From Aquabacterium humicola (GTDB lineage Bacteria; Pseudomonadota; Gammaproteobacteria; Burkholderiales; Burkholderiaceae_C), in NCBI RefSeq assembly GCF_030167915.1, contig NZ_JARGNB010000001.1, positions 434,001 through 498,000 on the forward strand: a stretch of DNA of 64,000 nucleotides, given 5' to 3'. A program made the position numbers and the translations under genes. Every line of letters begins with the position of its first letter. The first letter of the stretch is position 1. Positions 41,583 to 61,953 of the stretch are shown here, in pieces. Under the pieces are notes generated by a model. That model had not been told where the DNA came from. It did no database searches and saw nothing but the letters and a program-made list of their open reading frames with translations.

Positions 41583-41951
41583 TCAGCCCCCCGGTTCGTG
41601 GCAGACCACCTCGATGTTGTGGCCGTCCGGGTCGATGACGAAGGCCGCGTAGTAGTTCGGGTGGTACTTCGGTCGCAGGCCCGGCCCGCCGTTGTCCTTG
41701 CCACCGGCTGCCAGCGCCGCGCAGTGGAAGTCGTCGACCTGCTCGCGGCGCTCGGCGCGGAACGCGATGTGCAGGTGGGCGGGTTTCTCGTCGGTGGGCG
41801 CGAGGCAGAGCGAGGTCTTGCCGTCGGCGCTCATCTCGATGCCGAGCGGGCCTTCCAGCACCACCTCGATGCCCAGCGGCTGCAGCGCCCGAAGGTAGAA
41901 GGCCTTGCTGGCTTCGTAGTCGCGGACGCCGAAGACGACGTGGTCGAACAT
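41583..41951 (-). CDS. VOC/glyoxalase superfamily protein at the end of the catabolic operon
   Basis: 122 residues, one VOC unit: FDHVVFGVRDYEASKAFYLRAL, then AHLHIAFRAERREQVDDFH and AFVIDPDGHNIEVVCHEP. Histidine and glutamate metal-ligand candidates (H4, H-L-H pair, E in NIEVV) are present, but the chemistry is unknown. It starts 35 bases after the stop of the NicB-like gene on the same strand and may be the last gene of that operon, although many such proteins are general. Confidence 0.75.
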   Translation of the reverse strand: MFDHVVFGVRDYEASKAFYLRALQPLGIEVVLEGPLGIEMSADGKTSLCLAPTDEKPAHLHIAFRAERREQVDDFHCAALAAGGKDNGGPGLRPKYHPNYYAAFVIDPDGHNIEVVCHEPGG

Positions 41952-41986
41952 GAGGGCCCTCGGAAGCTGGCTGCGGGATGGGTCGG

Positions 41987-44900
41987 TCAGTCTAGCGAGG
42001 GAATGACGCGCCACGCGGCGCGCGCCGGCGCGAACCTCGAGCGCATGTAACGCGCGAGCTCGCCGACCTGTTGCGCGTCGAGCGCATCGGCAAAGCTGGC
42101 CATGTTTCCGATGTCGCGATGTGCCGGATCGCGCACGCCCTCGCGGATCAGCCGCACCAGGTTGTCCGGGCGATCACTGTGCAGCTTGGTGCTGAGGCTC
42201 AGCGGGATGTTGCGACCGAACACGGCGGGACCGTCGCCGTCGTGGTGGCAGGCGCCGCAGGCCTGGTCGAAGAGGCGCTGGCCGGCGGAGGCCAGCGGTG
42301 CCGATGCGGCGGCGCGTGCGATCACCTGGGCGGCGGTCGGCGTCAGCGATGTCGGCGCCGGGTTGAAGCTGGCGAGGTAGTGGGCCATCGCACGGATGTC
42401 GTCGTCGGGCAGCGTGGCGAGCTCGCGGATCACCGGCGCCATCGGCCCGGTCGCGACGCCATGCTCGGCGCTGTAGCCGCGGCGCAGGTAGTCGTAGAAG
42501 CCCTGCTCGTTCCAGGGCACCGGCGCGCGCGACAGCGCGGTCAGCGCCGGCGCTTCCCAGCCGTCGACCATCCCGCCGCCGAGGAAGGCTTGCGCATCGG
42601 TCTTCTCGGCGCCGAAGGCATTGCGTTCGGTGTGGCAGGCGCCGCAATGGCCGAGGCCGTTGACGAGGTAGGCGCCGCGGTTCCACTGCGGGCTGCGCGT
42701 CGGCTCGGGGCGGTACGGCGCCGGGTCGTGGAAGAGTGGGTTCCACAACGCCATCAGCGGGCGGATGTTGAACGGGAAGCTCAGCTCGGCGGGCGGCGTG
42801 GCGCTGCTCACCGCGGGTTGGCTCATCAGGAAGGCGTACAGCGCCTGCAGGTCGTCGTCGCTGGTCTTCGCGAATGCGGTGTACGGGAACGCGGGGTAGA
42901 GGTGGCGGCCGTCGCGGCTGATGCCTTCGCGCATCGCGCGCTGGAAGGCGCTGAAGGACCACGCGCCGATGCCGGTGGCCGGGTCGGGCGTCAGGTTGGT
43001 GCTGACGATGCGGCCGAAGGGCGTTTCGAGCCAGCGGCCGCCGGCGTTCGGCGCGCCGCCCTCGGCGGTATGGCAGGTGGCGCAGTTGCCTAACGCAGCC
43101 AGTTGGCGGCCACGTTCCAAGGTGTCGGCGGTGTAGACCGACGCGGCCGAACCCGTCGTCGTCACCGGCGCGATGGCCGGTCGCCAGCCGAGCAGCGCGC
43201 CGGCCGCGGCGACGAGGCCGGCGGCGAGCGCACCGGCGCGCGCGACGAGACTGCGGCGGCGCGGCAGGCGGGCTGTCGCGGGCAGGGCGGGGGGCGGCTC
43301 GGGTGTCAGCGTCGGCAGTGGCGCCGTCGCGGCCGGTGAACCGGCGGCGCTGTCCCCCGGCGCCGGCAGCGGATGCAGCGCCGCCCGCACCACCTCCGAC
43401 GTGAACGGCGGCTGGCGGAAGCGCACGCCGGTGGCATCGAAGATCGCGTTGGCGATCGCCGCGGTGCCGGGCACCGACGACGACTCACCCGCGCCCAGCG
43501 GCGGCTCGCCGGGGCGCGGCATCAGCAGCACGTCGATCACCGGCACGTCGCGGAAGTTCAGGATCGGGTACGCGCCCCATTCCCGCGCCGCGGGCAGTTG
43601 CGTCTTCTCGTCGACGGCCAGACGCTCCTTCAGCGCGCGGCTGGTGGTCTGCAGCACGTTGCCATGCACCTGCTGCTGCACGCCGGCCGGGTTGACCATC
43701 ATGCCGGCGTCGTGGCCGACGACGATCCGCCGGACGTTGACCTCGCCGGTCTCGCGGTGCACCTCGACATCGGCCACCCACGCGGCCCACGCGGCGCCGA
43801 AGCCGGGCCACTTGCTGTGCACGTAGCGCGCATACGCCACGCCCTGGCCTTGCAGCCAGTCGCCTTGGGCCGGCTGCAGCTGCGGCGCGGTGTGCGGCTT
43901 CCAGCCGGCGCGGTCGGCGGTGGCGCGCAGCAGCTCGGCGGCGCGAGCATCGGTCAGGTACTTCAGGCGATAGGCGACCGGGTCCTGCCCGGCGGCGGTG
44001 GCCAGCTCGTCGATGTAGCTCTCGTGCGCGAAGCTGTTCGGCAGCGCCGACACGCCGCGCAGCCACGACGCGCGCAGGATCGGCGCCATGTCGCGCGCGA
44101 CGATGCGTTGCGACGCGTACGCGTAGGGCGGCCGCGCGGTGCGGTCGCCCATCTGGTAGGCGTCGGCGCTGGGCGCGATCGTGCGCGTCAGCAGCAGTGC
44201 CAGGGTCGGCGCGCCGTTGGACGGGTAGGCGGTGCGGAAGTGGTAGCCGACCGGCTCGCCGTTCGCATCGAGGCCACCGTCCACCTGCATCAGCTGCGCG
44301 GCGCCCTTGGGCTCCCACAGGTGTTCCTGCTCGCGCGTCAGCTGCACGCGCACCGGCCGGCCGACCGCGCGCGCCAGCAGCGCGGCATCGGCGGCCACGT
44401 CGTCGGCGCCGTTGCGGCCGTAGCAGCCGGCGGCTTCCATGCGGATGACGTCGACCTGCACGTCGGCCAGGCCGGTCAGCCGCGCCAGGTCCGCGCGCAG
44501 CACGTGCGGGTTCTGCGTGCCGGCCCAGACCTGCAGGCGCGGGGCGGTGTCACCCTTCGCGCCCGCTTCGTGGGACTCTCGCCATAGCGCCAGCGCACAG
44601 GACGGGCCGATCGACGCATGCAGCTGGTAGGGCCACACGTACTCGCGCTGCAGGCGCTGCGCCGCGCCGTCGAGCGCGGCATCGAGGTCGCCTTCGTTCA
44701 CCAGCACGCGTTCGCTCGCCGGCTGGTCGCGCAGTGCCTGCGCCAGGTCGTGCAGCGGCGGCAGCGTCGGCGTGCCGGGCTTCCAGCGCACCTGCAGCGC
44801 GGCCTGCGCGGCCTCGGCCTGGTCCTCGCGCTCGGCGACGATGCCGATGAAGTCGCCTTGAATCACCACGGCGACGATGCCGGGGATGTGCGCGATCGAC

Positions 44901-45655
44901 GATTCGTCCACCGCCTCCAGGCTGGTGCCGACGAAGTCGCCGGCATCGACGCCGGCATACGGCGGCCGCACGACCCGGCCGTGCAGCATGCCGGGCAGGC
45001 GCATGTCGTGCACGAACACCGCCTCGCCGCGCACCTTCGCGGGGATGTCGATGCGCGGCACGGACCGGCCGACGAGCTGGTGATCGGCCGCGGGCTTCAG
45101 CGGGGTCGATGGATCGAGCATCAACTCGACATGCCGGCCCTGCAGCAGCGCGCCGTACGGCATCGCCAACGTGTCATCGGAGCGGCCGCGCACGACGCCG
45201 TTCGCCGCGATCAGTTCCTCGACCGGCCTCTGCCAGCGCGACGCTGCTTCCGCCAGCAGCCAGGCGCGGGCCTGCGCAGCAGCCTGGCGCAGCGGCGCGG
45301 CGTGGATCTGGATCGACGCGCTGGCGATCGTCGGGCCCTGGTTGGGCACCGCGGCGGTGTGGCCCAGCTGCATCGCGACGCAGCGCAAGGGCAGGTCGAG
45401 CTCCTCGGCGGCCAGCTGCGCCAGCGCGGTCTGCAGCCCCGTGCCCAGGTCGACATGGCCGGCCAGTGCGGTGGCGCTGCCGTCGTCCCACACGGCGAGC
45501 AGGATCTCGGGGCCTTCGGCCGGGTTGCCCGGCACGATCGCCGGCTGGCCAGGTGCGGGTGGCGGCGGCGCTGGCGGATCGCGCAGCACCAGCAGCACCC
45601 CGTCGGCCGTTCGGAAGTCGGCGCGGGTGCGCGGCGAATCCGCGCGGCGCGTCAT
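41987..45655 (-). CDS. nicB: NicB-like molybdenum dehydrogenase large subunit fused to a tri-haem cytochrome c region
   Basis: 1222 residues. Residues 1-about 790 are the xanthine-dehydrogenase-type molybdenum-cytosine-dinucleotide subunit (GHVDLGTGLQTALAQLAAEE, then RGEAVFVHDMRLPGMLHGRV, and GAGESSSVPGTAAIANAI near the Moco site). After a basic plus hydrophobic stretch (about 820-850, SLVARAGALAAGLVAAAGA) come three CxxCH haem sites: GNCATCHT, GHCGACHT and QACGACHH. The same organisation occurs in nicotinate hydroxylase NicB (about 1190 residues) and in isoquinoline oxidoreductases. Predicted reaction: 6-hydroxylation of nicotinate with electrons passed to the respiratory chain. The ATG overlaps the [2Fe-2S] subunit stop (ATGA). 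Another N-heterocycle could be the substrate. Confidence 0.85.
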   Translation of the reverse strand: MTRRADSPRTRADFRTADGVLLVLRDPPAPPPPAPGQPAIVPGNPAEGPEILLAVWDDGSATALAGHVDLGTGLQTALAQLAAEELDLPLRCVAMQLGHTAAVPNQGPTIASASIQIHAAPLRQAAAQARAWLLAEAASRWQRPVEELIAANGVVRGRSDDTLAMPYGALLQGRHVELMLDPSTPLKPAADHQLVGRSVPRIDIPAKVRGEAVFVHDMRLPGMLHGRVVRPPYAGVDAGDFVGTSLEAVDESSIAHIPGIVAVVIQGDFIGIVAEREDQAEAAQAALQVRWKPGTPTLPPLHDLAQALRDQPASERVLVNEGDLDAALDGAAQRLQREYVWPYQLHASIGPSCALALWRESHEAGAKGDTAPRLQVWAGTQNPHVLRADLARLTGLADVQVDVIRMEAAGCYGRNGADDVAADAALLARAVGRPVRVQLTREQEHLWEPKGAAQLMQVDGGLDANGEPVGYHFRTAYPSNGAPTLALLLTRTIAPSADAYQMGDRTARPPYAYASQRIVARDMAPILRASWLRGVSALPNSFAHESYIDELATAAGQDPVAYRLKYLTDARAAELLRATADRAGWKPHTAPQLQPAQGDWLQGQGVAYARYVHSKWPGFGAAWAAWVADVEVHRETGEVNVRRIVVGHDAGMMVNPAGVQQQVHGNVLQTTSRALKERLAVDEKTQLPAAREWGAYPILNFRDVPVIDVLLMPRPGEPPLGAGESSSVPGTAAIANAIFDATGVRFRQPPFTSEVVRAALHPLPAPGDSAAGSPAATAPLPTLTPEPPPALPATARLPRRRSLVARAGALAAGLVAAAGALLGWRPAIAPVTTTGSAASVYTADTLERGRQLAALGNCATCHTAEGGAPNAGGRWLETPFGRIVSTNLTPDPATGIGAWSFSAFQRAMREGISRDGRHLYPAFPYTAFAKTSDDDLQALYAFLMSQPAVSSATPPAELSFPFNIRPLMALWNPLFHDPAPYRPEPTRSPQWNRGAYLVNGLGHCGACHTERNAFGAEKTDAQAFLGGGMVDGWEAPALTALSRAPVPWNEQGFYDYLRRGYSAEHGVATGPMAPVIRELATLPDDDIRAMAHYLASFNPAPTSLTPTAAQVIARAAASAPLASAGQRLFDQACGACHHDGDGPAVFGRNIPLSLSTKLHSDRPDNLVRLIREGVRDPAHRDIGNMASFADALDAQQVGELARYMRSRFAPARAAWRVIPSLD

Positions 45656-46245
45656 GGCGCGATCAGATCCGCGGCGCGCCGCACGGCGTCCAGGATCTCC
45701 AGGTGCGTGCCGCAGCGGCAGAGGTTGTGCGACAGCGCGGCGCGCACCTGCACGTCGCTGGGGCACGGGTGGCGCTCCAGCAGCGCCACGGTGGCGATGA
45801 CCATGCCGTTGAGGCAGTAGCCGCACTGCGCGGCCTGCGCGTCGATGAAGGCCTGCTGCACCGGGTGCAGGGCGTCGCCTTCAGCCTGGGCCCGCGCGGG
45901 CAGGCCTTCCAGCGTCGTCACCGCGCGGCCTTCGGCCACCCGCACCGGGATCACGCAGGACCGCGCCGGCGTGCCGTCGATCAGCACCAGGCAGGCGCCA
46001 CATTCGCCCAGGCCGCAGCCGTACTTCGGGCCGTTGAGCGCCAGGTCGTTGCGCAGCACCTGCAGCAGCGGCGCGTCGGGCGGCACGGCCAGCGTGTGCG
46101 GCTGGCCGTTCACGTCGAGCGTTAGCTTTGTTTCGTGGCAGGTGCTCGGATGGTCCAGCGGCCGCCGCGGAACCGGCTTTGCCGGGCCGCTGGCGGCGCC
46201 CCCCTGGGGGGGAGGCGACCGCAGGTCGCTCCGGGGGGGGGTCAT
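45652..46245 (-). CDS. nicA: NicA-like [2Fe-2S] subunit of the molybdenum dehydrogenase
   Basis: Two [2Fe-2S] clusters are visible: plant-ferredoxin-type CGLGECGACLVLIDGTPARSC and helical CGYCLNGM...CRCGTH. Normal members have about 155 residues. The start is uncertain. The conserved first strand TKLTLDVNGQ has no ATG, GTG or TTG just before it. The only ATG in frame downstream of livF is at 46245, overlapping the livF stop (ATGA), and gives 197 residues with a Pro-rich 40-residue leader read from a palindromic intergenic element. A GTG at 46113 or a CTG at 46158 are alternatives. The subunit shuttles electrons from the Moco to the haem part of NicB. Confidence 0.8.
   Translation of the reverse strand: MTPPRSDLRSPPPQGGAASGPAKPVPRRPLDHPSTCHETKLTLDVNGQPHTLAVPPDAPLLQVLRNDLALNGPKYGCGLGECGACLVLIDGTPARSCVIPVRVAEGRAVTTLEGLPARAQAEGDALHPVQQAFIDAQAAQCGYCLNGMVIATVALLERHPCPSDVQVRAALSHNLCRCGTHLEILDAVRRAADLIAP
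46160..46245. repeat. REP-like intergenic element with three GC-rich hairpins
   Basis: CCGGC-TTT-GCCGG (46173-46185), CCCCCC-T-GGGGGG (46199-46211) and GCGACC-GCA-GGTCGC (46215-46229) follow each other between livF and the NicA-like gene, next to a nine-G run (46233-46241 region). Such palindromic intergenic repeats are common in related Burkholderiales; in mRNA they could end or stabilise the livF part of the transcript. Confidence 0.6.
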
Positions 46246-47003
46246 ACACTCAAGTACGCGCGCCGCACCTCGTCGTTGCGCGCCAGTTCGGCCATCGTCG
46301 CGTGGTAGCGGATCTGGCCCTTCTCCAGCACGTAGGCGCGGTCGGACACCAGCTCGGCGAAGTGCATGTTCTGCTCGGACAGCAGGATGCTGACGCCATG
46401 GCCCTTGAGCTCCAGGATCATGTGGGCCATCTGCTCGACGATGACCGGCGCGACACCTTCGCTGGGTTCGTCGAGCAGCACCAGGTAGGGGTTGCCCATC
46501 AGGGTGCGCGCGACGGTCAGCATCTGCTGCTCGCCGCCGCTCATGCGGCCGCCGGGCCGGTCGGGCATCTCGCCGAGGTTGGGGAAGAGCTTGAACAGGC
46601 GCTCCGGGGTCCAGGCGGGCGCTTCGCTGCCGTCGGCCCAGCGGCGCGGCGGCTGGCGGCCGACCTCCAGGTTTTCCATGACTGTCAGGTCGCTGAAGAT
46701 GCGGCGGTCCTCGGGCACGTAGCCCAGGCCCAGACTCGCGATCTGGTGCGGCTCGGCCTGGCTGATGTCGCGGTCCATGAACTGGATGCTGCCGCGGTGG
46801 CGGTCCAGCAGGCCCATCACCGCCTTCAAGGTGGTCGACTTGCCCGCGCCGTTGCGGCCCATCAGCGCGACGACCTCGCCGCGCTTCACCTCGAGATCGA
46901 CGTCGAACAGGATGTGCGCGGCGCCGTACCAGGCGTTCAGCGCCTTGGCACGCAGCAGGGCCGGCGCCTCCGGCGGCATCGCAGCGGGTTCGGGGTGCCT
47001 CAT
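46242..47003 (-). CDS. livF: Branched-chain-type ABC transporter ATPase LivF
   Basis: 253 residues. Walker A GRNGAGKST near residue 51, Q-loop in GYVPEDRRIFSDLTV, ABC signature MSGGEQQMLTVART and Walker B LVLLDEPSEG. Short LivF-like C-terminus (EVRRAYLSV). It energises import through the LivHM permease with LivG. It starts by 4-base overlap with livG stop. In this operon it probably serves uptake of nicotinate or a related heterocycle rather than branched-chain amino acids; that is inferred from neighbours. No substrate-binding protein gene is nearby. Confidence 0.92.
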   Translation of the reverse strand: MRHPEPAAMPPEAPALLRAKALNAWYGAAHILFDVDLEVKRGEVVALMGRNGAGKSTTLKAVMGLLDRHRGSIQFMDRDISQAEPHQIASLGLGYVPEDRRIFSDLTVMENLEVGRQPPRRWADGSEAPAWTPERLFKLFPNLGEMPDRPGGRMSGGEQQMLTVARTLMGNPYLVLLDEPSEGVAPVIVEQMAHMILELKGHGVSILLSEQNMHFAELVSDRAYVLEKGQIRYHATMAELARNDEVRRAYLSV

Positions 47004-47788
47004 CGCGCGGTCTCCGCGGCCACCGGCTTCTCGAAGGTCCTGCCGCTGCCGAAGTAGACCTCCTGCACCTTGGCATGGTCGCGGATCGCCTGCGGCGGGC
47101 CTTCGGCGATCAGCTTGCCGCGCGCCAGCACGATCAGCCGGTCGGCGTAGGCGAAGACCACGTCCATGCTGTGCTCGGTGAACAGCACGCTCAAGCCGCG
47201 GTCCTTCACCAGCTGCTTGGTCAATGCCATGAGTTCGTTGCGTTCCTTGGGCGCCATGCCGGCGGTGGGTTCATCCATCAGCAGCAGCTTGGGGTCGTTG
47301 GCCAGCGCGATGGCCAGTTCCACGCGCTTGATGTCGCCGTAGGCCAGCACGCTGCACGGGCGATCGGCCTGCGCGCGCATGCCCACCTGTTCCAGCAGGG
47401 CCAGCGCATCGTCGCGCCGATGGTCCGCTGCGCGGTGCCAGAACGAGAATACGCGGTGATCGGCCGACAGCAGCGCCAACTGCACGTTCTGCACCACGGT
47501 CATCGAACCGAAGGTCTCGGCGATCTGGAAGGTGCGGCCCACGCCCAGGCGCCAGATGCGGCGCGGCGCCAGGCCCACCAGCTCGCGGCCGGCCAGCTGG
47601 ATCGAGCCGGCATCGGCCCGCAGCTGGCCGTTGACCATGTTGAAGGTGGTGGACTTGCCCGCGCCGTTGGGGCCGATCAGCGCCAGCAGCTCGCCGGCGT
47701 GCAGCGAGAAGTTCACGTCGTCGACGGCGCGGTTGCCGCCGAAGTTCTTCGTCAGGCCGCGCACCTCGAGCAGCGGAGTCGAGGCCAT
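47000..47788 (-). CDS. livG: Branched-chain-type ABC transporter ATPase LivG
   Basis: 262 residues. Walker A GPNGAGKSTTFNM near residue 42, the long LivG insert SADHRVFSFWHRAADHRRDD, the degenerate signature LAYGDIKRVELAIAL in place of LSGGQ, and Walker B LLLMDEPTAGM. The AETFGSMTVVQNV block is the Q-loop region. Its start (47788) shares one base with the permease stop, so translation is coupled. Works with LivF and the fused permease. Confidence 0.92.
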   Translation of the reverse strand: MASTPLLEVRGLTKNFGGNRAVDDVNFSLHAGELLALIGPNGAGKSTTFNMVNGQLRADAGSIQLAGRELVGLAPRRIWRLGVGRTFQIAETFGSMTVVQNVQLALLSADHRVFSFWHRAADHRRDDALALLEQVGMRAQADRPCSVLAYGDIKRVELAIALANDPKLLLMDEPTAGMAPKERNELMALTKQLVKDRGLSVLFTEHSMDVVFAYADRLIVLARGKLIAEGPPQAIRDHAKVQEVYFGSGRTFEKPVAAETAR

Positions 47789-49668
47789 CAGGTCGCCTCC
47801 TCGCGCTGGAAGCGCTGCTTGACGAAGCCGGCCAGCCCCATCGGGAACACCAGCACCAGCAGCAGCACGATGCCGCCCAGCAGCGCACGCCAGTAGTCGG
47901 TGTTGCGCGCGACGGTGTCCTGCAGCCAGGTGAAGGTGACCGCGCCCACCAGTGGGCCGGACAGCGTCTGCAGCCCGCCCAGCAGCACCATCACCAGCCC
48001 GTCGACCGAGCGGCCGACGGCGAGCGCGTCGGGCGAGATGCTGCCCTTGGAGAATCCGAACAGCGCGCCGGCCAGGCCCGCGAAGAGCCCCGCGGCGATG
48101 AAGGCGACCCATTGAACGCGCTTGACGTCGATGCCGATCGCGTCGCTACGCAGCACCGAGTCGCGTGCGGCGCGCATCGCGAAGCCGAAGGGGGCGAACA
48201 GCATGCGGCGCAGGGCGAGCACGGCGATGACGACCAAAGTGAGCGTCAGGCCATAGTACATGCGTTTGTCGGCGAGCCATTCCGAGGGCCACACGCCGGT
48301 CAGCCCGTTGCTGCCGCCGGTGACTTCGTCCCACTGGAAGACGACGGACCAGACGATCTGCGCGAAGGCCAGCGTCAGCATCGCGAGGTAGACGCCCGAC
48401 AGGCGCACGCAGAACCAGCCGAAGAGCAGCGCGCCCGCCGCGGCGGCCAGCGGCGCGGCGATCAGCGCCACCTCCATCGGCAGGTGCAGCGAGCGCACCA
48501 GCAGTGCCGCGCCGTACGCGCCGAGGCCGAAGTAGGCCGCATGGCCGAAGGAATGCATGCCCGCCGGGCCCATGATGAAGTGCAGGCTGGCGGCGAAGAG
48601 CGCGGCGGTGAGCAGGTCGATCGCCAGCACGGTGAGGTAGGGCGAGCCGCTGGTGACCAGCGGCAGCAGCACCAGCGCGGCCAGCAGCGCCGCGCCGGCG
48701 ATCTTGAGGCCCTTGCCGGCCGGGTGCAGCGGCGCTTCGATCGGCCCGGCATGGCGGCTCGGCGCCTGCGGGCGACCCAGCAGGCCCCAGGGCCGCACGA
48801 CCAGCACGACCGCCATCACGAGGAATTCGGCCACCAGCGTCAGCTTCGAGAAGTTGAAGGTCAGGCCGAACAGTTCCACGTTGCCGAGGCCGACGCACAT
48901 CGCGTTGATCTCGGCGATCAACAACGCGGCGACGTAGGCGCCGGGGATCGAGCCCATGCCGCCGACCACGACGACCACGAACGCGTTGCCGATCGTCACC
49001 AGGTCCAGCCCCAGGTTGGCTGGCTCCCGCGGCAACTGCAGCGCACCGCCCAGCCCCGCGAGCAGCGCGCCGAGCGTGAACACGCCGGTGAACAGCCACG
49101 CCTGGTTGACGCCCAGCGCGCTGACCATCTCGCGGTCCTGCGTGGCGGCGCGCACGAGGGTGCCGAAGCGCGTGCGTGTCAGCAGCAGCCACATCAGGCC
49201 GAGCACGATCGGGCCGACGGCGATCAGCAGCAGGTCGTAGCTCGGGAAGCGCCGGCCCAGGATCTCGACCGAGCCGGTGAAGCCGGGGGCGCGCGGGCCG
49301 AGCAGGTCTTCCGGCCCCCACAGCCACAGCGCGGCATCCTTGATCACCAGCACCAGCGCGAAGGTGGCCAGCAGCTGGAAGAGCTCGGGCGCGCGGTAGA
49401 TGCGGCGCAGCAGCAGCACCTCCACCAGCGCGCCGAGCACGCCGACCCCGATCGCCGCCAGCGCCAGGCCGGGCCAGAACCAGCCGGGGCCGAGCTTGTC
49501 GACGATCGCGTAGGCGACGTAGATGCCCAGCATGAAGAACGAGCCGTGCGCGAAGTTGACGATGCGCGTCACGCCGAAGATCAGCGACAGCCCCGCGGCG
49601 ACGAGGAACAGCGACGACGCGCCGGCCAGGCCGTTGAGCAGTTGGACGACGAAGCCGGACAGGTCCAT
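47788..49668 (-). CDS. livHM: Fused LivH-LivM permease of the ABC importer
   Basis: 626 residues. The N-terminal half (about 1-295) is LivH-like: SLIFGVTRIVNFAHGSFFML near the start and FVVVVVGGMGSIPGAYVAALLIAE later. The C-terminal half (about 320-610) is LivM-like: FIMGPAGMHSFGHAAYFGLGAYG, RLSGVYLAMLTLAFAQIVW, then LGGLQTLSGPLVGA. About seventeen transmembrane helices. In most bacteria the two permeases are separate genes; the fusion is in one uninterrupted frame. It forms the membrane pore with LivG and LivF. Confidence 0.9.
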   Translation of the reverse strand: MDLSGFVVQLLNGLAGASSLFLVAAGLSLIFGVTRIVNFAHGSFFMLGIYVAYAIVDKLGPGWFWPGLALAAIGVGVLGALVEVLLLRRIYRAPELFQLLATFALVLVIKDAALWLWGPEDLLGPRAPGFTGSVEILGRRFPSYDLLLIAVGPIVLGLMWLLLTRTRFGTLVRAATQDREMVSALGVNQAWLFTGVFTLGALLAGLGGALQLPREPANLGLDLVTIGNAFVVVVVGGMGSIPGAYVAALLIAEINAMCVGLGNVELFGLTFNFSKLTLVAEFLVMAVVLVVRPWGLLGRPQAPSRHAGPIEAPLHPAGKGLKIAGAALLAALVLLPLVTSGSPYLTVLAIDLLTAALFAASLHFIMGPAGMHSFGHAAYFGLGAYGAALLVRSLHLPMEVALIAAPLAAAAGALLFGWFCVRLSGVYLAMLTLAFAQIVWSVVFQWDEVTGGSNGLTGVWPSEWLADKRMYYGLTLTLVVIAVLALRRMLFAPFGFAMRAARDSVLRSDAIGIDVKRVQWVAFIAAGLFAGLAGALFGFSKGSISPDALAVGRSVDGLVMVLLGGLQTLSGPLVGAVTFTWLQDTVARNTDYWRALLGGIVLLLVLVFPMGLAGFVKQRFQREEAT

Positions 49669-49671
49669 GGG

Positions 49672-50256
49672 TCAGCGCAGCCCGTCTTCGCCCTTGATTT
49701 CCGAGGCCTGCAGGCCGCCCACCCGCGGCAGCGGCCGCCCGCTGGCGGTCACCGCCACCGCGACGACGATCTCGTTCGCCCGCGGCGCATCGGCCACGCG
49801 GGCCTCGATCGCATCGAAGTGGCTGCGCACGAAAGCCGCGTCCTTGTGGCCCAGCGGCACGTCGATCGCGGTGCCCAGCGTGCCGATCTTCTTGGCCGAC
49901 GGCACCAGCGCGGCGCCTTTCTCGACCGCCTTGCGCAGCGGCGCGCCGAGCTTCGGATGCAGGATCGCCGCGGCATGCTCCAGCTCGCCGGCCTCGCCGA
50001 CGATCGCCGCCTTGCCGTAGCTCTGCGCTTCGGCGGGCGCGATGCCCAGCGCTCGCACGCACTTCTCGCCGAGCAGGCCGCCCAGCTCCTCGCCGATGCC
50101 GATCAGCTCGTCCAGGTTCTCCACGTACTTTCCGGCACAGGGATTGGCGATCACCGCGATCGCGACGGCGCGGCGCGTGGGTGGATCGACCGGGCGGCCC
50201 ATCTCGATGCGGGTCTCGTCGACCTGCACGATCAGCTTGCGGATGTTGGCAGTCAT
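49672..50256 (-). CDS. Amino acid synthesis family protein (PF06684-like), paralogue 2
   Basis: 194 residues. It shows the family blocks KLIVQVDETRIEMGRPVDPP, then IANPCAGKYVENLDEL, GYGKAAIVGEAGELEHAAA-like sequence (SYGKAAIVGEAGELEH), and IDVPLGHKDAAFVRSHFDA. The biochemical function of this family is not established; despite its name, a catabolic role is likely here because it sits between the 6-hydroxynicotinate reductase and the transporter in one operon. It is about 40% similar by eye to the neighbouring 213-residue paralogue. Three bases separate it from the permease start. Confidence 0.8.
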   Translation of the reverse strand: MTANIRKLIVQVDETRIEMGRPVDPPTRRAVAIAVIANPCAGKYVENLDELIGIGEELGGLLGEKCVRALGIAPAEAQSYGKAAIVGEAGELEHAAAILHPKLGAPLRKAVEKGAALVPSAKKIGTLGTAIDVPLGHKDAAFVRSHFDAIEARVADAPRANEIVVAVAVTASGRPLPRVGGLQASEIKGEDGLR

Positions 50257-50276
50257 TCGGGTGTCCTCGGGGATGG

Positions 50277-50918
50277 TCAGCGCAGTCCGTTCCACTGGGT
50301 GATCTCGGAAGCCTTCAGCCCGCCGACGCGGCTGTGCACGCGCGGCCCGGTGCTCATCACCAGGATGAAGACGATCTCGTCGGCGGCCGGTGCGCCGGGC
50401 ACGCGCACCTCGATGGCGTCGAAATGGCTGCGCACGTAGCTGGCGTTGATGTGGGTCAGCGGCACGTCCAGTGCGGCGCCGGGCGGGCCGACCTTCTTGG
50501 TCGACGGCACGATGGCCAGCGCATTGCCGGGTTGTCCTGACTTCTCTTCGGGCTTGCCGGCCACATAGGCCGCCCGGTCACCCTTCCAGCCCAGCAGCTC
50601 GCGCATCGCGTAGCCGCCGGGCACGTGCCACAGCGCGCCGTGTTCCAGCTCGCCGCCGGCGCCGACGATCGCACCCTTGCCATAACCTTCGATGCGCTCG
50701 GCCGGCACGTCCATCGCGGCCAGCAGGCGCTGCGCCATGTCGATGCCCACCGGCTGCAGCGCATCCATCATCGGCAGGATCTGCGGTTCGTAGCGGCCGG
50801 CGAAGGGGTTCGTCAGCACCGCGGCGATCGCGCCGCGCTTCAGCGGCGTGGCGGCCGGCGGGCCGAATTCATGGTGGATGTCCTCGACCTGCGTCAGGAC
50901 GCGGCGGATCTGGATCAT
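50277..50918 (-). CDS. Amino acid synthesis family protein (PF06684-like), paralogue 1
   Basis: 213 residues, same family and layout as the next gene: RRVLTQVEDIHHEFGPPAA, VLTNPFAGRYEPQILPM, EGYGKGAIVGAGGELEHGA and DVPLTHINASYVRSHFDAIE. A roughly 25-residue insert (AMRELLGWKGDRAAYVAGKP) distinguishes it from paralogue 2, so the pair may form a heteromer. The start overlaps the UPF0280 stop by 4 bases (ATGA). Function unknown; the context suggests ring-opening or downstream steps of N-heterocycle breakdown. Confidence 0.8.
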   Translation of the reverse strand: MIQIRRVLTQVEDIHHEFGPPAATPLKRGAIAAVLTNPFAGRYEPQILPMMDALQPVGIDMAQRLLAAMDVPAERIEGYGKGAIVGAGGELEHGALWHVPGGYAMRELLGWKGDRAAYVAGKPEEKSGQPGNALAIVPSTKKVGPPGAALDVPLTHINASYVRSHFDAIEVRVPGAPAADEIVFILVMSTGPRVHSRVGGLKASEITQWNGLR

Positions 50919-51820
50919 GTCGGCGTGCTTTCCGCGGCGATGGCGGGCTGGGGTTCGGGAGGGTGGACCGGCTCGACGCGCGCGAGGCGGCTCTGGCAGA
51001 CCAACGCGGCCGACCAGATCAGGGCGCGCGACTGCAGCGCGCGTGCGCACTTCGCGCCGGCGCGCAGCGCATCCAGCACCTGGGCATGCGCGAGCGGCGG
51101 CACGTCGACGGTGACCGGGATGTCGCCCAGGTCGCTGTCGTCCTTCAGCGTGTTCGCGGGGCGGCGCACGATGCGGGGGTCGTCGCTGTTCACCGCGTTG
51201 GCGATCATCGTCGCCGCCGCGTCCGCTTCGGCCGCCGTGCGCGCGAGCACCGTCACGCTGTCGGCGATGCCTAGCGAGAAGCTGCGGCCGCGCCAGCCGC
51301 TGGTGGCGATGCCGCGCACCGGCATCGCGGCGGTGATCGCGAAACGGCCGTCGAGCGCCAGGCCCCCGTGCCCTTCCAGCAGCTGCCGCGCATCGAGCTT
51401 CGCGATGTCGGCGAACAGGCCCACGCGCAGCGATTCCCCGGGCGCCAGGTGCAAGGCGATGTCGCCGCCGTTGTTCACCCACGCGCGGCGGATGCCCGGC
51501 TGGCGGTAGAAGCCGATCAGTTCCTGTGCCACCGCGCCGGCCACAGCGGCCATCGGCGTGATGAAGGCCTCATGGTGCGGCCGGCAGGCCAGCCACATGC
51601 GGCGCGCGATGTCGCCGCGCAGCGGGCAGGGCCCGCGCACCGGGCGCTTCAGCAGCGGCAGCTCGGCCACCAGTTCGTCGAGGATGGTCTCGAAGCGCCG
51701 CCACGCCGCTTCGTGCGCGGCTTCGACGGCGTCGTGCTCGCCGTCGGCGCCGATCAGCACGTCGATCGGGCCGTGCTGGAAGTGACGGCCGTCGCGCCAT
51801 TGGGTGCGGATCGCGGGCAT
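50915..51820 (-). CDS. UPF0280 family (ApbE-like fold) protein
   Basis: 301 residues. Family blocks seen are GPIDVLIGADGEHDAVEAAH near residue 17, the NNGGDIALHL core near 115 and SDSVTVLARTA-like sequence (ADSVTVLARTAAEADAAATM). The fold is related to the flavin transferase ApbE, but the flavinylation residues are not clearly kept. Function unknown. It follows the reductase gene by 9 bases and overlaps the next gene by 4, so it belongs to the same operon; a role in reductase maturation or flavin attachment is a plausible guess. Confidence 0.78.
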   Translation of the reverse strand: MPAIRTQWRDGRHFQHGPIDVLIGADGEHDAVEAAHEAAWRRFETILDELVAELPLLKRPVRGPCPLRGDIARRMWLACRPHHEAFITPMAAVAGAVAQELIGFYRQPGIRRAWVNNGGDIALHLAPGESLRVGLFADIAKLDARQLLEGHGGLALDGRFAITAAMPVRGIATSGWRGRSFSLGIADSVTVLARTAAEADAAATMIANAVNSDDPRIVRRPANTLKDDSDLGDIPVTVDVPPLAHAQVLDALRAGAKCARALQSRALIWSAALVCQSRLARVEPVHPPEPQPAIAAESTPT

Positions 51821-51829
51821 GCGGGCGTC

Positions 51830-53458
51830 CTAACCGAGCATCGGACCGTGGCCCAGCGGCCACGGGTTGTTCGTCGAACCGACCGCCCAGCGCCGCGCGG
51901 TCGGTGCGCCGTCGTTGTGCCAGGCACCGGTCTTCAGCACCTGCGCCAGCGGCCGCACATGGTCGAGGTGGCCGCCGAGCGCGGCGTAGTCCTCGAGCCG
52001 CATGCTGAACTCGATCGGCGCGACGATGGCCGGCGTCGGCACGGTGCCGAAGCTGTGCTCGGGCATGCGCAGCACGTCGGCCATCACGGTGATGCCGCCG
52101 CCCGGCCACACGTAGGCCGGCGCGCCGCCGCAGGTGACGTTGACCAGCGCGTTCTTGATCGAGCGTGTGAGGCGAACCGGGTTGTCGGTGACACCGGCGC
52201 GCAGGCTGCCGCCGGCACCCCCGAGGAACAGCACGGAGCACAGCGAAGGCTCGCAGTTCTCGCCGATGCGCTCGACGACCGCGCGCACCGGGGCCGGCAT
52301 GTCCTGCTCCACCGGCCGCAGCTGTTCGTCGAGCACGTACCACGCGGCATGTTCGCCGGTGGTCGAGGTCATCAGGAGGCGCAGGCCCGGCCACGCGAGC
52401 TCGGGGTCCCAGCCCTCGACGATGGCCAGCGGCTCGGTCAGGTCGGTGCCGCCCCAGCCGGTGCCGGGGTTCGCCACCTGGAACCAGCGCCCCGGCGTGG
52501 ACTTGCGTCCGCGCATCTTCACGCCCGAGCGCCGCATGTCGAGGCAGCGGCCGGCCTGGTGCTCGGTCAGCACGCCGGTGATGTGGTCGTCGACGACGAT
52601 CACCTCGTCGGCCTGGCCGTAGAGCTGCTTCGCGAAGATGCCGATCGTCGCCGAGCCGCAGCCGACGCGCATGCGCTGTTCCTCGACGCCGTTGACGATC
52701 GGCGCGCGGCCGGCCTGCACGATGACCTGCGAGCCGCCGTCGATGTGCAGTTCCACCGCGCCGCGGTTGCCGAGCGTCTCCATCACCTCCAGCGTGACGC
52801 GGCCTTCCTTCTTGCTGCCGCCGGTCAGGTGGTGCACGCCGCCGAGCGACAGCATCTGCGAGCCGTATTCCATCGTCGTGACATGGCCCACGACCTCGCC
52901 CTTGCAGCGCACGTTGGCCTGCTCGGGGCCGAGGAAGCGGTCGGTGTCGATCTTCAGCTTGAAGCTGCAGTAGCTGAAGATGCCTTCGGTGACGACGGTC
53001 ACCACGTCGACGCCGTTCACCTGCGAGCCGACGATGAAGGGCGCGGGCTTGTAGTCGGGATAGGTGGTGGACGAACCGACGCCGGTGACGAAGACCTCGT
53101 TGGCATGCAGCAGGTCGCCGTTCCAGTCGGCGCTGTCGTTCGGCGCCGGCGCCCCGGCCGCGGCGTCGGCCGGCGGCTGCACGCGGCCTTCGAAGGCGAC
53201 CAGCGGCACCGCGCCGGCCTCGACCGTGCGGCGCAGCAGCAGCACCGGGTCGACGCGGATCAGCGTGCCCTCGTGGTTCGCATAGCGGTCGCAGGCGCCG
53301 CTCTTGCCTTCGCTGATCTGGCACAGCACCGGGCAGGCGTTGCACTCGATCTTGTCGCCGGCCATGCGCTCGTTGCGCGGCCGCGAGCGCTCGAGCACCT
53401 GCGGCGCGGCCGGCATGTCCAGTGCTGGCAAACCATCGGTCTTGCTGTGCTCCGTCAT
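51830..53458 (-). CDS. hnr: 6-hydroxynicotinate reductase homologue (iron-sulfur flavoprotein)
   Basis: 542 residues. An N-terminal cysteine cluster C-x2-C-x3-C-x9-C (IECNACPVLCQISEGKSGAC, near residues 38-57) probably binds a [4Fe-4S] cluster. Long glycine-rich blocks follow: VTEGIFSYCSFKLKIDTDRF, VVGHVTTMEYGSQMLSLGGV, MRVGCGSATIGIFAKQLYG, and a terminal GSTNNPWPLGHGPM. Predicted reaction: two-electron reduction of 6-hydroxynicotinate to 1,4,5,6-tetrahydro-6-oxonicotinate, as in the nicotinate fermentation of Eubacterium barkeri and in Azorhizobium. It is the first gene of a leftward operon and is divergent from the TetR/enamidase pair. Assignment rests on family recognition and on co-location with an enamidase homologue. 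Confidence 0.82.
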   Translation of the reverse strand: MTEHSKTDGLPALDMPAAPQVLERSRPRNERMAGDKIECNACPVLCQISEGKSGACDRYANHEGTLIRVDPVLLLRRTVEAGAVPLVAFEGRVQPPADAAAGAPAPNDSADWNGDLLHANEVFVTGVGSSTTYPDYKPAPFIVGSQVNGVDVVTVVTEGIFSYCSFKLKIDTDRFLGPEQANVRCKGEVVGHVTTMEYGSQMLSLGGVHHLTGGSKKEGRVTLEVMETLGNRGAVELHIDGGSQVIVQAGRAPIVNGVEEQRMRVGCGSATIGIFAKQLYGQADEVIVVDDHITGVLTEHQAGRCLDMRRSGVKMRGRKSTPGRWFQVANPGTGWGGTDLTEPLAIVEGWDPELAWPGLRLLMTSTTGEHAAWYVLDEQLRPVEQDMPAPVRAVVERIGENCEPSLCSVLFLGGAGGSLRAGVTDNPVRLTRSIKNALVNVTCGGAPAYVWPGGGITVMADVLRMPEHSFGTVPTPAIVAPIEFSMRLEDYAALGGHLDHVRPLAQVLKTGAWHNDGAPTARRWAVGSTNNPWPLGHGPMLG

Positions 53459-53494
53459 CGGGATCTTCCGCGCTTGTCGGGCTCGATGGGTTCA

Positions 53495-53512
53495 ATGTAG
53501 CATTCACTACAT
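53495..53512. promoter_or_regulatory. Candidate operator controlling both arms of the catabolic cluster
   Basis: ATGTAG-CATTCA-CTACAT, with imperfect extension by TTCA/TGAA outside, lies in the 91-base intergenic region between the divergent hnr (53458) and TetR (53550) starts. It is A/T-rich in a GC-rich genome and is a good TetR-type operator candidate. Confidence 0.5.
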
Positions 53513-53549
53513 GAACTGAGAAATCGGGCCGAACCCGACTCGTCGAAAA

Positions 53550-54275
53550 ATGCAGTCCGGAGACAACAGCAGCGCGGTGATCGAACGCAAGCCCGGCGTG
53601 CGCGAGCTGGCCGCGCAGGCCACGCGCGACGGCATCCTGCGCGCGGCGATCAAGGTGTTCGCGAAGCACGGTTTCGCCGGCGGCCGCATCGAGCAGATCA
53701 GCAAGGCCGCGAAGTCCTACGACCGCATGATCTACTACTACTTCGGCAGCAAGGAGGCGCTGTACATCGCCGTGCTGGAGGAGATCTACCGGCGCTTCAA
53801 CGAGGCCGAGTCCGAACTGCAGCTCGACCACCTGCCGCCGCCGGAGGCGCTGCGCGCGGTGATCCGCTTCATGTGGTCCTATTACCTGAAGCACCCGGAG
53901 TTCATCACGCTGCTGAACACCGAGAACCTGCACCGCGGCAAGCACATCGCGAAGTCGCCGACCGCGCGCGAATACTCGTCGCCGGCCGTCGGCGTGCTGG
54001 ACCATGTGCTGAAGCAGGGCGCCGCGCAAGGCCTGTTCCGCGCCGACCTGTCCGCGCGCGACCTGTACCTGACGATCGCCGCGCTGTGCTACTTCTACCT
54101 GTCGAACCGCTTCACGCTGTCGGCCTTCCTGGGCGAAGACCTGGAAGCGCCGGAAGCGCTCGCGCAGTGGCAGGCCCATGTCATCGAGACCGTCGAACGC
54201 AGCGTCGTGCGGAACCACGGCGATGCTGCAAACGTGCCGAGTCCGGCCAGCAAGAGGAACCATCACCATGGCTGA
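53550..54275 (+). CDS. TetR-family regulator of the N-heterocycle cluster
   Basis: 241 residues. An N-terminal extension of about 25 residues precedes the TetR helix-turn-helix (RDGILRAAIKVFAKHGFAGG, then YYYFGSKEALYIAVLEEIY). The C-terminal ligand domain includes TENLHRGKHIAKSPTAREYS, as in TetR proteins that sense heterocyclic or aromatic compounds. It overlaps the enamidase start by 8 bases (54268-54275), so they are co-expressed and the regulator is probably autoregulated. It is likely to repress the divergent hnr operon in the absence of the pathway substrate or intermediate. Confidence 0.88.
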   Translation: MQSGDNSSAVIERKPGVRELAAQATRDGILRAAIKVFAKHGFAGGRIEQISKAAKSYDRMIYYYFGSKEALYIAVLEEIYRRFNEAESELQLDHLPPPEALRAVIRFMWSYYLKHPEFITLLNTENLHRGKHIAKSPTAREYSSPAVGVLDHVLKQGAAQGLFRADLSARDLYLTIAALCYFYLSNRFTLSAFLGEDLEAPEALAQWQAHVIETVERSVVRNHGDAANVPSPASKRNHHHG

Positions 54276-55461
54276 TGCCGCCGTCGCCGGGAAGTCCGGC
54301 AAGGTCGTGATCCGCAACATCGGCCTGCTGCTGTCGGGCGACATCGACCGGCCGATCCTCGATGCCGACTGCATCGTGATCGACGACGGCGTGATCGTCG
54401 CGGTCGGCCGCGAGAAGGACCTGGATGCCGCGCAGCCGAAGACGCTGATCGACGCCAAGGGCACCTGCGTCTGCCCGGGGCTCATCGACAGCCACGTGCA
54501 CCCGGTCTTCGGCGACTGGACGCCGCGGCAGAACCAGCTCGGCTGGATCGACTCGACGATGAACGGCGGCGTGACGACGATGGTCTCCGCCGGCGAGGTG
54601 CACCTGCCGGGGCGGCCGAAGGACATCGTCGGCCTGAAGGCACTGGCCATCACCGCGCAGCGCGCGTTCGACAACTTCCGCCCCGGCGGCGTCAAGGTGA
54701 TCGCCGGTGCGCCGGTGATCGAGAAGGGCATGGTCGAGCAGGACTTCGCCGACCTCGCGGCCGCGGGCGTCAAGCTGCTCGGCGAGGTCGGCCTCGGTTC
54801 GGTGAAGGCGGGCTACGAGGCGCAGCAGATGGTCGCCTGGGCGCGCCGGCACGGCATCCAGAGCACCATCCACACCGGCGGCCCGTCGATCCCGGGCTCC
54901 GGGTTGATCGACAAGGACGTGGTGCTCGAAGCCGATGCCGACGTCATCGGCCACATCAACGGCGGCCACACGGCGCTGCCCGAACGCGATGTCTGCACGC
55001 TGTGCGAGAAGAGCAGCCGCGCCATCGAGATCGTGCACAACGGCAACGAGAAGATCGCCATCGCCGCTGCCCAGGCAGCAATGCTGCTGAAATGCCCGCA
55101 CCGGGTGATCCTGGGCACCGACGGGCCGGCGGGCTCGGGCGTGCAGCCCTTGGGCATCCTGCGCATGATTTCGCTCTTGTCGAGCCTGGGCAACATCCCC
55201 GCCGAGCTGGTGTTCTGCTTCGCCACCGGCAACACCGCGCGCATCCGCGGCCTCAACGGCGGGCTGGTCGAACCCGGCCGCGACGCGGACTTCGTCTTCC
55301 TGGACCGCGCGCAGCACACCGCCGGCCGCACGCTGCTGGAGAGCGTGCAACTGGGCGACATTCCCGGGGTCGGCATGGTGATGATCGACGGCCTCGTGCG
55401 CTGCGGTCGCAGCCGCAATACGCCGCCGGCGACCGAGGTGCCGGTGGTGGTGGGCGGCTGA
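54268..55461 (+). CDS. ena: Enamidase homologue (amidohydrolase)
   Basis: 397 residues, amidohydrolase superfamily. Metal-site motif H-x-H in GLIDSHVHPVFGDW (near residue 77), GGVTTMVSAGEVHLPGRPKD, the MHTGG-like HTGGPSIPGSGLI block, HINGGHTALP and LGTDGPAGSGVQPLGILRMI. The C-terminus GRSRNTPPATEV and the blocks above match the enamidase of Eubacterium barkeri (about 385 residues), which hydrolyses 1,4,5,6-tetrahydro-6-oxonicotinate to 2-formylglutarate and ammonia. Adjacent to the reductase homologue, it would open the ring. The ATG at 54268 is supported by AAGAGGAA about 7 bases upstream. Confidence 0.85.
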   Translation: MADAAVAGKSGKVVIRNIGLLLSGDIDRPILDADCIVIDDGVIVAVGREKDLDAAQPKTLIDAKGTCVCPGLIDSHVHPVFGDWTPRQNQLGWIDSTMNGGVTTMVSAGEVHLPGRPKDIVGLKALAITAQRAFDNFRPGGVKVIAGAPVIEKGMVEQDFADLAAAGVKLLGEVGLGSVKAGYEAQQMVAWARRHGIQSTIHTGGPSIPGSGLIDKDVVLEADADVIGHINGGHTALPERDVCTLCEKSSRAIEIVHNGNEKIAIAAAQAAMLLKCPHRVILGTDGPAGSGVQPLGILRMISLLSSLGNIPAELVFCFATGNTARIRGLNGGLVEPGRDADFVFLDRAQHTAGRTLLESVQLGDIPGVGMVMIDGLVRCGRSRNTPPATEVPVVVGG

Positions 55462-61800: not shown

Positions 61801-61953
61801 ACCGAGGACGAGTACGCGGTGCTGGCTCGCTCGGCCCAGGGCATCGTGGACAAGGGCGGCGGTGGCGTGGCCGAGGTGCTGGAGGCCTTGCAACGATGGG
61901 CGCCGACAACCGACGCGCCCGATGCGATCGGGCGATCAACGGGGGATCGATGA
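58861..61953 (+). CDS. Hybrid histidine kinase with an ETR1-like ethylene-binding membrane domain
   Basis: 1030 residues. Residues 28-118 hold three membrane helices with the ethylene-binding pattern: D34, Y41, I44-P45, C74-G-L-T-H78 and K97 match ETR1 D25, Y32, I35-P36, C65-x3-H69 and K91 in order. Three PAS-like segments follow (about 150-285, 288-405, 410-525), then HisKA with H556 in NMSHELRTPLNAI, and the ATP-binding domain (NFVSNAVKFTPAGG, GVGLGLTLTRQL). A degenerate receiver-like part without acceptor Asp (about 775-885) precedes a full receiver with D946 in VLDLMMPEVDG. Predicted ethylene- or other-signal sensor. The next response-regulator gene overlaps it by 4 bases. Confidence 0.88.
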   Translation: MDALESLLARNGYLPHGYCFQWSPGLLWTMVGADLLIALAYFSIPLAIISFVRKRPQQNFGGVPWLFSAFIFGCGLTHVMDLWVVWQPVYPLQAAVKAGTAAISAYTALALWPLIPRALRIPTVGALQSVITALQAEVARRRSAEEQLQEIEQRLATTLGSIGAGFIATDAAGLVTRMNAVAERVTGWAEGDAQGQSLWRVFEREGEPPDERDPVFALLSRPGPAPEALSAVCVARDGRRTAIELNADLTRAADGSARGLTLVLRDVTRLSQAESAVRRLAAVVESSADAIIAGSLDGRITDWNAAAERMFGYTADEAVGQPMQVLVPPAQRAEQASLFAQIVAGRGGVSLRSVRCAKDGRQIEVSLTISPIRDALGQVAGVAKTMRDLTHQRLIEAALRRSEARIRFALESALIGDWEMELDGGEVWRSPRHDRCFGHDEPLLVWTRRTLLEHVHPDDRPAVEQSLRTAIDGRAEWHAEFRALWPDGSEHWLRMDGRVLPGEPEATARMVGIVADITPLRQAEEARLLAQKLQQENLQIIASSRLKSQFLANMSHELRTPLNAIIGFADVLRERRVAPDSPRHHEFVSHIASSGRHLLQVINDILDLSRIEGGRLELHPAPVDLAQAIDKVIGALAEPAAAKALRVTASVDPALHDVVLDPARIEQVLFNFVSNAVKFTPAGGHIAVRALAEDDATFRLEVEDTGVGIAADDLPRLFVNIQQLDGGYAKRHQGVGLGLTLTRQLVEAQGGEVGARSVPGQGSTFFARLPRRAPGLPRMLLAQQAKPLGDHIARELAEGGIPVDAPGSTAEVIRLTRTRRYDGLALALNREGGGLDALAQLRRGDAEAPPVRALAASSGDGRLATFAVSDVIAKPLRADEVSDALRPLRPAIGGGGVVLVVDDDPLARDLMQATLEGFGLRTAGAGGGLEALKLLPTLKPAAMVLDLMMPEVDGFQVLHRLRADPAWRDLPVLVWTSMALTEDEYAVLARSAQGIVDKGGGGVAEVLEALQRWAPTTDAPDAIGRSTGDR

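Follow-up and report, generated by a model that had tools for sequence, protein, structure and literature searches.

Gene content and organization of the cluster

The window analyzed here is a stretch of 64,000 nucleotides from the genome of Aquabacterium humicola (contig NZ_JARGNB010000001.1, positions 434,001 to 498,000). Between positions 41987 and 55461 it contains a gene cluster built around a homologue of 6-hydroxynicotinate reductase (Hnr), which probably serves the catabolism of nicotinate (Table 1). Transcription on the minus strand follows the order hnr, UPF0280, PF06684 paralogue 1, PF06684 paralogue 2, livHM, livG, livF, nicA and nicB, with tetR and the enamidase gene (ena) running divergently. 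If ATG starts are used, overlaps amount to 4 bases for nicB/nicA, livF/livG and PF06684-1/UPF0280, 1 base for livG/livHM and 8 bases for tetR/ena, and gaps to 3 bases for livHM/PF06684-2, 20 for PF06684-2/PF06684-1 and 9 for UPF0280/hnr; the divergent hnr and tetR genes are 91 bases apart. All genes named in the initial annotation are present and encode proteins with the expected domains. The listed livHMGF genes are of the Liv type, but livH and livM are fused in one open reading frame (ORF). Likewise, the description of the minus-strand genes as one tightly coupled operon agrees with the short overlaps and gaps, except at the livF–nicA junction, which is not simple.

Table 1. Genes of the candidate nicotinate cluster, with coordinates in the window
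Gene or product	Coordinates	Strand	Supporting match
nicB-like, Mo hydroxylase large subunit with triheme cytochrome c	41987..45655	-	Pfam MoCoBD_1/2, Cytochrom_C
nicA-like, 2x[2Fe-2S] subunit	45652..46245	-	Pfam Fer2_2 (1e-25), Fer2
livF-type ATP-binding cassette (ABC) transporter ATPase	46242..47003	-	Pfam ABC_tran
livG-type ABC ATPase	47000..47788	-	Pfam ABC_tran, BCA_ABC_TP_C
livH-livM permease, one fused ORF, 626 aa	47788..49668	-	two BPD_transp_2 stretches in a single frame
PF06684 paralogue 2 (AAS2)	49672..50256	-	PF06684, 239 bits (curated cut-off 27); PDB 2qtp, 3e-87
PF06684 paralogue 1 (AAS1)	50277..50918	-	PF06684, 227 bits (curated cut-off 27)
UPF0280 protein, ApbE-like fold	50915..51820	-	NCBIfam NF003322, 380.8 bits (cut-off 290)
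hnr, 6-hydroxynicotinate reductase homologue with N-terminal four-Cys motif	51830..53458	-	
TetR-family regulator	53550..54275	+	TetR_N, TetR_C_29
ena, enamidase, amidohydrolase superfamily, ring opener	54268..55461	+	2vun_A, 8.2e-110

Hnr homologues and conservation of the cluster

Of 398 genomes sampled from the phylum of the window, 32 encode Hnr homologues, as do 4 of 369 sampled from its class (both counts include its own genome); homologues also occur on 26 plasmid records (56–75% identity), 17 of which carry the annotation 6-hydroxynicotinate reductase. A species-level genome collection yielded at least 558 stretches with homologues; the best 80 of these, chiefly from Burkholderiales, were retained, and the Hnr of the window is 64–80% identical to their proteins. 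These 80, together with all 31 other matches from the phylum, 3 other matches from the class and 9 plasmid loci out of the 26, constitute the 123 loci examined below. As these 80 come from close relatives of the window, counts over the 123 loci are not independent. Overall, Hnr is 56–80% identical to annotated or clustered Hnr proteins, as would be expected for the reductase of an aerobic cluster for reduction to 1,4,5,6-tetrahydro-6-oxonicotinate (THON). Residues C39, C42, C46 and C56 are kept in 41 of 42 aligned rows. Hnr matched no Pfam or NCBIfam family; against PDB sequences it gave one match at E 0.19 as a single sequence and none as a profile, and a fold search with its AlphaFold model (predicted local distance difference test score, pLDDT, 77.7) returned no match at E ≤ 0.001. 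None of 18 pattern matches to Hnr in viral contigs was confirmed.

UPF0280 is present in 121 of the 123 loci, no more than 300 bases from hnr in 116 of them, and the wider gene order is found again in most untruncated Burkholderiales loci; chance grouping of the genes is therefore excluded. The two loci without UPF0280 are a 3-kb contig (L027) and L140, where neither UPF0280 nor PF06684 adjoins hnr; in the latter genome (G190), UPF0280 and both PF06684 genes occur with genes of the xanthine dehydrogenase (XDH) type on another contig (L185). In L139, UPF0280 lies 12 kb from hnr. The initial annotation had placed the start of the cluster at 41583, yet 41583–41951 is a separate glyoxalase-like gene. 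It was rejected as a cluster member because it accompanies the cluster in 0 of the 123 loci, though many of these stop short of nicB or directly behind it.

The first enzyme and the livF–nicA junction

NicB carries CxxCH motifs at residues 858, 1004 and 1133, and the NicA/NicB-type genes are a candidate counterpart of the respiratory molybdenum hydroxylase in aerobic THON clusters, with a substrate that the sequence does not fix. Among solved structures, NicB comes closest to aldehyde dehydrogenase 8gy3, namely to its cytochrome and large subunits, and the nicotinate dehydrogenase of Eubacterium barkeri (3hrd) scores below 8gy3. The nicA frame and the livF stop share 4 bases, and the frame crosses a G+C-rich dispersed repeat of about 80 bases (46162–46242), which matches no fewer than 37 genomic sites, its own among them, with 40 of 144 candidate places scored. 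As the frame runs through this repeat, the true start of nicA is unsure; the conserved part of NicA begins near 46130. Among the 74 loci in which both genes could be measured, livF and nicA are separated by a median distance of about 1000 bases, and by no more than 150 bases in 11. Since this distance is usually large in relatives, nicAB may form its own transcription unit. The type of first enzyme also varies among the loci, being NicAB-type, flavin adenine dinucleotide (FAD)/XDH-type, or absent within reach. Separately, a gene for the alpha subunit of a Rieske-type ring-hydroxylating oxygenase was observed near the hnr clusters of 4 of the 123 loci (L138, L139, L156 and L157).

Candidate ring-opening enzymes

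The enamidase assignment of the initial annotation was checked by alignment to 2VUN, and the match is nearly full length, covering residues 11–390 of 397. The HVH motif, the E of EVGLG, the H of HTGG, the H of HINGG and the D of GTDGP/GNDAP, which we take to be metal ligands, are all kept. Across the 123 loci, an enamidase gene is in reach in 84, a HyuAB pair in 13, and neither in 26; no locus has both in reach, although L156 encodes an enamidase plus a distant HyuAB (38–42%). The 13 loci in which HyuAB replaces enamidase include L117, L119, L120, L128, L130, L155 and L159. The one pair tested, that of L120, scored best against the caprolactamase CapA/CapB, far under the equivalog cut-offs. 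By this resemblance, a caprolactamase-like HyuAB would suit ATP-dependent lactam opening; an open-access literature search found no report of HyuAB as a second way of opening THON. Thus, Hnr, UPF0280 and PF06684 are the usual core of these loci, and the first enzyme and the ring opener are exchangeable modules.

PF06684 proteins

Both PF06684 proteins of the window are family members by the curated cut-off and are 39% identical to each other; the matching structure 2qtp appears, from its single chain, to be SPO0826. The family falls into two deep paralogue clades. A set of Lys, Glu, His and Arg residues is conserved in every one of 202 rows, or in every one but a single row; one of the 202 is misframed. 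By tblastn in untruncated loci (leaving out L027, L048, L052, L066 and L083), paralogue 2 is found with enamidase in 81 of 81 loci and with HyuAB in 3 of 13, and paralogue 1 with enamidase in 70 of 81 and with HyuAB in 12 of 13. ORF-based counts differ from tblastn in 8 loci and give 67 of 81 for paralogue 1 with enamidase. No PF06684 gene was found in the examined stretch of L129. On a tree of 54 Hnr rows out of 120 available, with L137 (whose hnr is in two frames), L129 and L140 as long branches, the opener changes 4 times, and the 3 independent pairs on supported branches point in the same direction or are neutral; the paralogue labels of L008 and L118 in this test are affected by ORF-based calling. 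Statistical proof of a link between ring opener and PF06684 was therefore rejected, as 3 independent pairs are too few for significance.

Six PF06684 contexts away from hnr were fetched (L185 is not among them), and their neighbours were scanned in part. The gene adjoins those for a luciferase-like monooxygenase, a flavin reductase and an alpha/beta hydrolase in L184, a flavin reductase and an aldehyde dehydrogenase in L181 and L182, an aldehyde dehydrogenase and a thiamine pyrophosphate enzyme in L186, and a hydrolase and a TRAP-type binding protein in L183; in L180 only a fumarylacetoacetate hydrolase gene was seen, about 2 kb off. The genome of the window has a third PF06684 copy (L160:8473–10436, G000:C40) among genes for GntR, a Liv-type transporter and an amidase, which may constitute a further system for the catabolism of an amide or lactam.

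It is somewhat unlikely that the PF06684 and UPF0280 proteins are accessory to transport or regulation instead of being pathway catalysts. The family name, "amino acid synthesis", and the available excerpt of PMC2954203 point to such an accessory role, and PF06684 genes often adjoin Liv transporter genes, as with BB2672 and SPO0826 (PMC2954203) and the third copy described above. However, PF06684 also stands beside hnr where no close Liv homologue adjoins it (for example in L127 and L155), its neighbours away from hnr include the flavin reductase, luciferase-like monooxygenase, hydrolase and aldehyde dehydrogenase genes listed above, and the paralogue present tracks the ring opener. In the breakdown of trigonelline, 2-formylsuccinate is decarboxylated to a semialdehyde. 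Because 2-formylglutarate and 2-formylsuccinate share this decarboxylation to a semialdehyde, we propose that PF06684 may handle or assist the decarboxylation of 2-formylglutarate. According to the excerpted text of PMC7913881, HcdD of coumarin breakdown, which is PF06684-like (DUF1185 fold family), has a homologue in TgnF of the trigonelline pathway, and of TgnF it is said only that it stimulates TgnE-dependent oxidation of succinic semialdehyde; the same excerpt reports no effect for HcdD, which speaks for the accessory role.

UPF0280

The model of the UPF0280 protein (pLDDT 93.8) gave DUF375 (2o34, 1e-10) as its best Foldseek match, followed by FmnB/ApbE. An ApbE fold is indicated by eight FmnB/ApbE chains with E values from 1.1e-4 to 9.8e-4 and modest query-based scores (TMq 0.34–0.50), and of its ten matches at E ≤ 0.001, only those to ApbE/FmnB are to proteins with a known function. 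Covalent flavin attachment to Hnr in the manner of ApbE would fit this fold and the position of the gene next after hnr, and E. barkeri Hnr reportedly carries a covalent flavin (Alhapel, in 2006); nevertheless, we consider it rather doubtful. We assumed that ApbE-type activity is marked by a catalytic His segment and a target motif. By-eye comparison showed that UPF0280 lacks the H-[VI]-L-D-P segment carried by both ApbE proteins of the genome, and the DxxSGAT-type target motif occurs in 0 of 42 Hnr rows, with SGAS or SGAT lacking the upstream Asp in 3 of 42. A canonical ApbE flavinylation site in Hnr was accordingly rejected. In addition, profile comparison of UPF0280 with ApbE gave a probability of 25%, and in genome G190 both UPF0280 and PF06684 are on a different contig from hnr. 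As the canonical segment and target motif are lacking and the profile similarity is weak, a role of UPF0280 in serving the Hnr flavin is plausible only, on the strength of the modeled fold.

A satellite locus with a probable part in transport and electron supply

The loci of the relatives often encode functions that the cluster of the window lacks. Ferredoxin-NADP reductase genes are present in 79 of the 123, Liv-type binding protein genes in 92, nicotinamidase-like genes in 45 (one match being only 27% identical) and FdxA-type ferredoxin genes in 19, and none of these four is found in the window cluster. The same genome, however, has genes for ferredoxin-NADP reductase (fpr), the binding protein (livK) and a nicotinamidase side by side at C1:319483–322398 (L179:7484–10399), about 112 kb before the start of the window (C1:434001–498000) and about 154 kb from the cluster. 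The fpr product is 83% identical, with one close copy in the genome. The livK product shows 79% identity with the cluster binding protein; among the 28 matches the second best reaches 27%, with shorter pieces up to 35%. The nicotinamidase is 72% identical and scores 187.6 bits against an NCBIfam cut-off of 174. Decay of the window cluster was rejected because the binding protein and fpr genes were found at C1:319–322 kb. With livK there, the Liv-type genes, UPF0280 and PF06684 supply the ABC transporter and conserved unknown proteins of an aerobic THON cluster. The satellite locus therefore supports nicotinate or nicotinamide as the substrate and NADPH–Fpr(–ferredoxin) as the electron supply that probably feeds Hnr.

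Proposed pathway and alternatives

We estimate at roughly 80% the probability that the cluster encodes nicotinate catabolism by the reductive (THON) route as in aerobic proteobacteria; this estimate applies to the nicotinate/THON route alone and not to the roles of PF06684 and UPF0280. The sequence nicotinate to 6-hydroxynicotinate to THON to 2-formylglutarate, put forward in the initial annotation, remains the best reading in light of the enamidase match, the Hnr homology, the nicotinamidase genes and the cluster of the cultured Bradyrhizobiaceae strain SG-6C. For A. humicola, we infer the substrate and the electron path as follows. The Liv-type transporter would take up nicotinate with the distantly encoded binding protein, and NicAB would hydroxylate it at C6, passing electrons to the respiratory chain via its own cytochrome c domain. 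Hnr would then reduce 6-hydroxynicotinate to THON, probably with NADPH electrons delivered by ferredoxin-NADP reductase and ferredoxin, and enamidase would hydrolyse the ring to 2-formylglutarate and ammonia. Decarboxylation and oxidation of 2-formylglutarate would lead to glutarate and on to acetyl-CoA, with PF06684 acting at the ring-opening or decarboxylation step and UPF0280 serving the Hnr flavin. Decarboxylation and passage through glutarate and glutaryl-CoA are said to have been described by Kitts in 1992, and the first three genes were reportedly seen in nine Proteobacteria by Alhapel in 2006.

A more specific joint reading is unlikely to hold in full. In it, PF06684 would be the missing enzyme of the aerobic reductive route and would use its conserved lysine to decarboxylate the unstable 2-formylglutarate or would first hydrolyse its enamine, the two paralogues would be matched to enamidase and HyuAB, both of which would open THON, TgnF would act likewise on 2-formylsuccinate, and UPF0280 would handle flavin specifically for Hnr. 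The conserved lysine corresponds to K95 of paralogue 2 when numbering begins at the GTG at 50295.

The route has published precedent. PMC3511419 recounts THON formation first in anaerobic E. barkeri and later in aerobic Azorhizobium caulinodans, and describes a cluster conserved in four Alphaproteobacteria (Azorhizobium ORS571, B. japonicum USDA110, Rhodopseudomonas HaA2 and SG-6C), with an SG-6C Hnr homologue 42% identical to that of E. barkeri. According to the same excerpts, SG-6C degrades nicotinate, by the authors' inference via THON, and the aerobic route after ring opening goes via glutarate. The excerpt of PMC9304392 likewise ascribes this route to E. barkeri and Azorhizobium, under the term "the anaerobic pathway", and the parts of PMC12746152 and PMC10331938 that were available contain nothing that alters the nicotinate reading. 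Because PMC3511419 and PMC9304392 describe this route, and PMC3511419 such a cluster, that of the window belongs to a published kind. The pairing of a respiratory first step with reduction of the ring in an aerobic host, pointed out in the initial annotation, was already on record for Azorhizobium in 2012 (PMC3511419), and the view of it as remarkable is not supported.

Several observations weigh against the nicotinate assignment. Among solved structures NicB is most closely related to subunits of an aldehyde dehydrogenase, and the first substrate is therefore not fixed by sequence. The specificities of NicB and Hnr are presumed here; the identity of Hnr was judged from annotated or clustered homologues. 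Because some relatives pair Hnr with an FAD/XDH-type hydroxylase and others have none in reach, other 2-pyridones may be substrates of Hnr homologues. The cluster yielded no glutarate-semialdehyde enzyme and no glutaryl-CoA enzyme. In favour of the route, on a plasmid of Sulfitobacter pontiacus (L157:1–5794), genes for an AMP-binding protein (acyl-CoA ligase), a 3-hydroxyacyl-CoA dehydrogenase, an enoyl-CoA hydratase and an acyl-CoA dehydrogenase adjoin the hnr cluster and perhaps form the glutarate branch, as a glutaryl-CoA/crotonyl-CoA route would need. These genes nonetheless fall under every curated NCBIfam cut-off, the best being acryloyl-CoA reductase with 152 of 640 bits for the acyl-CoA dehydrogenase. 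The genome of the window has two acyl-CoA dehydrogenases (54–55% identical) to which no substrates are assigned.

The NicB relatives, the exchange of the NicAB-type first enzyme for an FAD/XDH-type one while Hnr stays, and the channelling of 6-chloronicotinate into the same route by SG-6C (in the excerpts of PMC3511419) would also fit degradation, through the same chemistry, of another N-heterocycle, such as a different pyridine carboxylate or a nicotinate substituted at position 6. We regard this as quite improbable, as nicotinamidase genes accompany the cluster, inside it or adjoining it, in 45 of the 123 loci and also occur in the satellite locus of the window's genome, and the gene set equals that described for nicotinate users.

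Biochemically, the reductive breakdown of vitamin B3 by aerobes is already known, and in the literature examined the conserved "unknown" families have no step assigned to them. An open-access literature search returned no published account of the roles of PF06684, UPF0280 and HyuAB. What is new here is the pattern that emerges from the comparison, together with testable roles for these three, the cluster itself being of the published kind. The pattern of a core plus modules makes two families of unassigned function directly and cheaply testable, and it leads to the prediction that an ATP-dependent lactamase can serve as the ring opener instead. For annotation it carries a warning, in that the binding protein, electron donor and nicotinamidase of such clusters can be encoded far off in the same genome.

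Neighbouring genes

Beyond the cluster, the window encodes a hybrid sensor kinase (58861–61953, plus strand) with an ethylene-receptor-like ETR1_N domain at its N-terminus, PAS domains and a receiver, adjoined by a gene for a PAS-GGDEF-EAL protein (56598–58727).

Comparison with known systems

The fermentation of E. barkeri shares with the window an Hnr-type reductase and an enamidase (2VUN). Its nicotinate dehydrogenase (3hrd) presumably has no cytochrome domain, unlike the NicB of the window, and E. barkeri reduces 2-formylglutarate. The nic cluster of Pseudomonas putida has a NicAB-type first enzyme with a cytochrome c domain, as in the window. Unlike that of E. barkeri, the aerobic route leads to glutarate in the excerpted account of PMC3511419, and P. 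putida differs in that its ring is opened via 2,5-dihydroxypyridine (excerpts of PMC3511419 and PMC9304392). The trigonelline pathway, as far as it is described in the excerpt of PMC7913881, is alike in having a PF06684-type protein (TgnF) in the breakdown of an N-heterocycle and different in its ring chemistry. A close correspondence exists with the cluster of SG-6C, Azorhizobium, Bradyrhizobium and Rhodopseudomonas, which by its description in the excerpts of PMC3511419, as opposed to a gene-by-gene comparison, likewise has a hydroxylase, Hnr, a ring opener, an ABC transporter and conserved unknown proteins, the last of which are probably UPF0280 and PF06684. Compared with these SG-6C-type clusters, that of the window is distinguished by its betaproteobacterial host, its two PF06684 genes and the placement of the binding protein, fpr and nicotinamidase genes at a satellite locus; its regulator is of the TetR family, whereas many of the non-Burkholderiales loci among the 123 have MarR.

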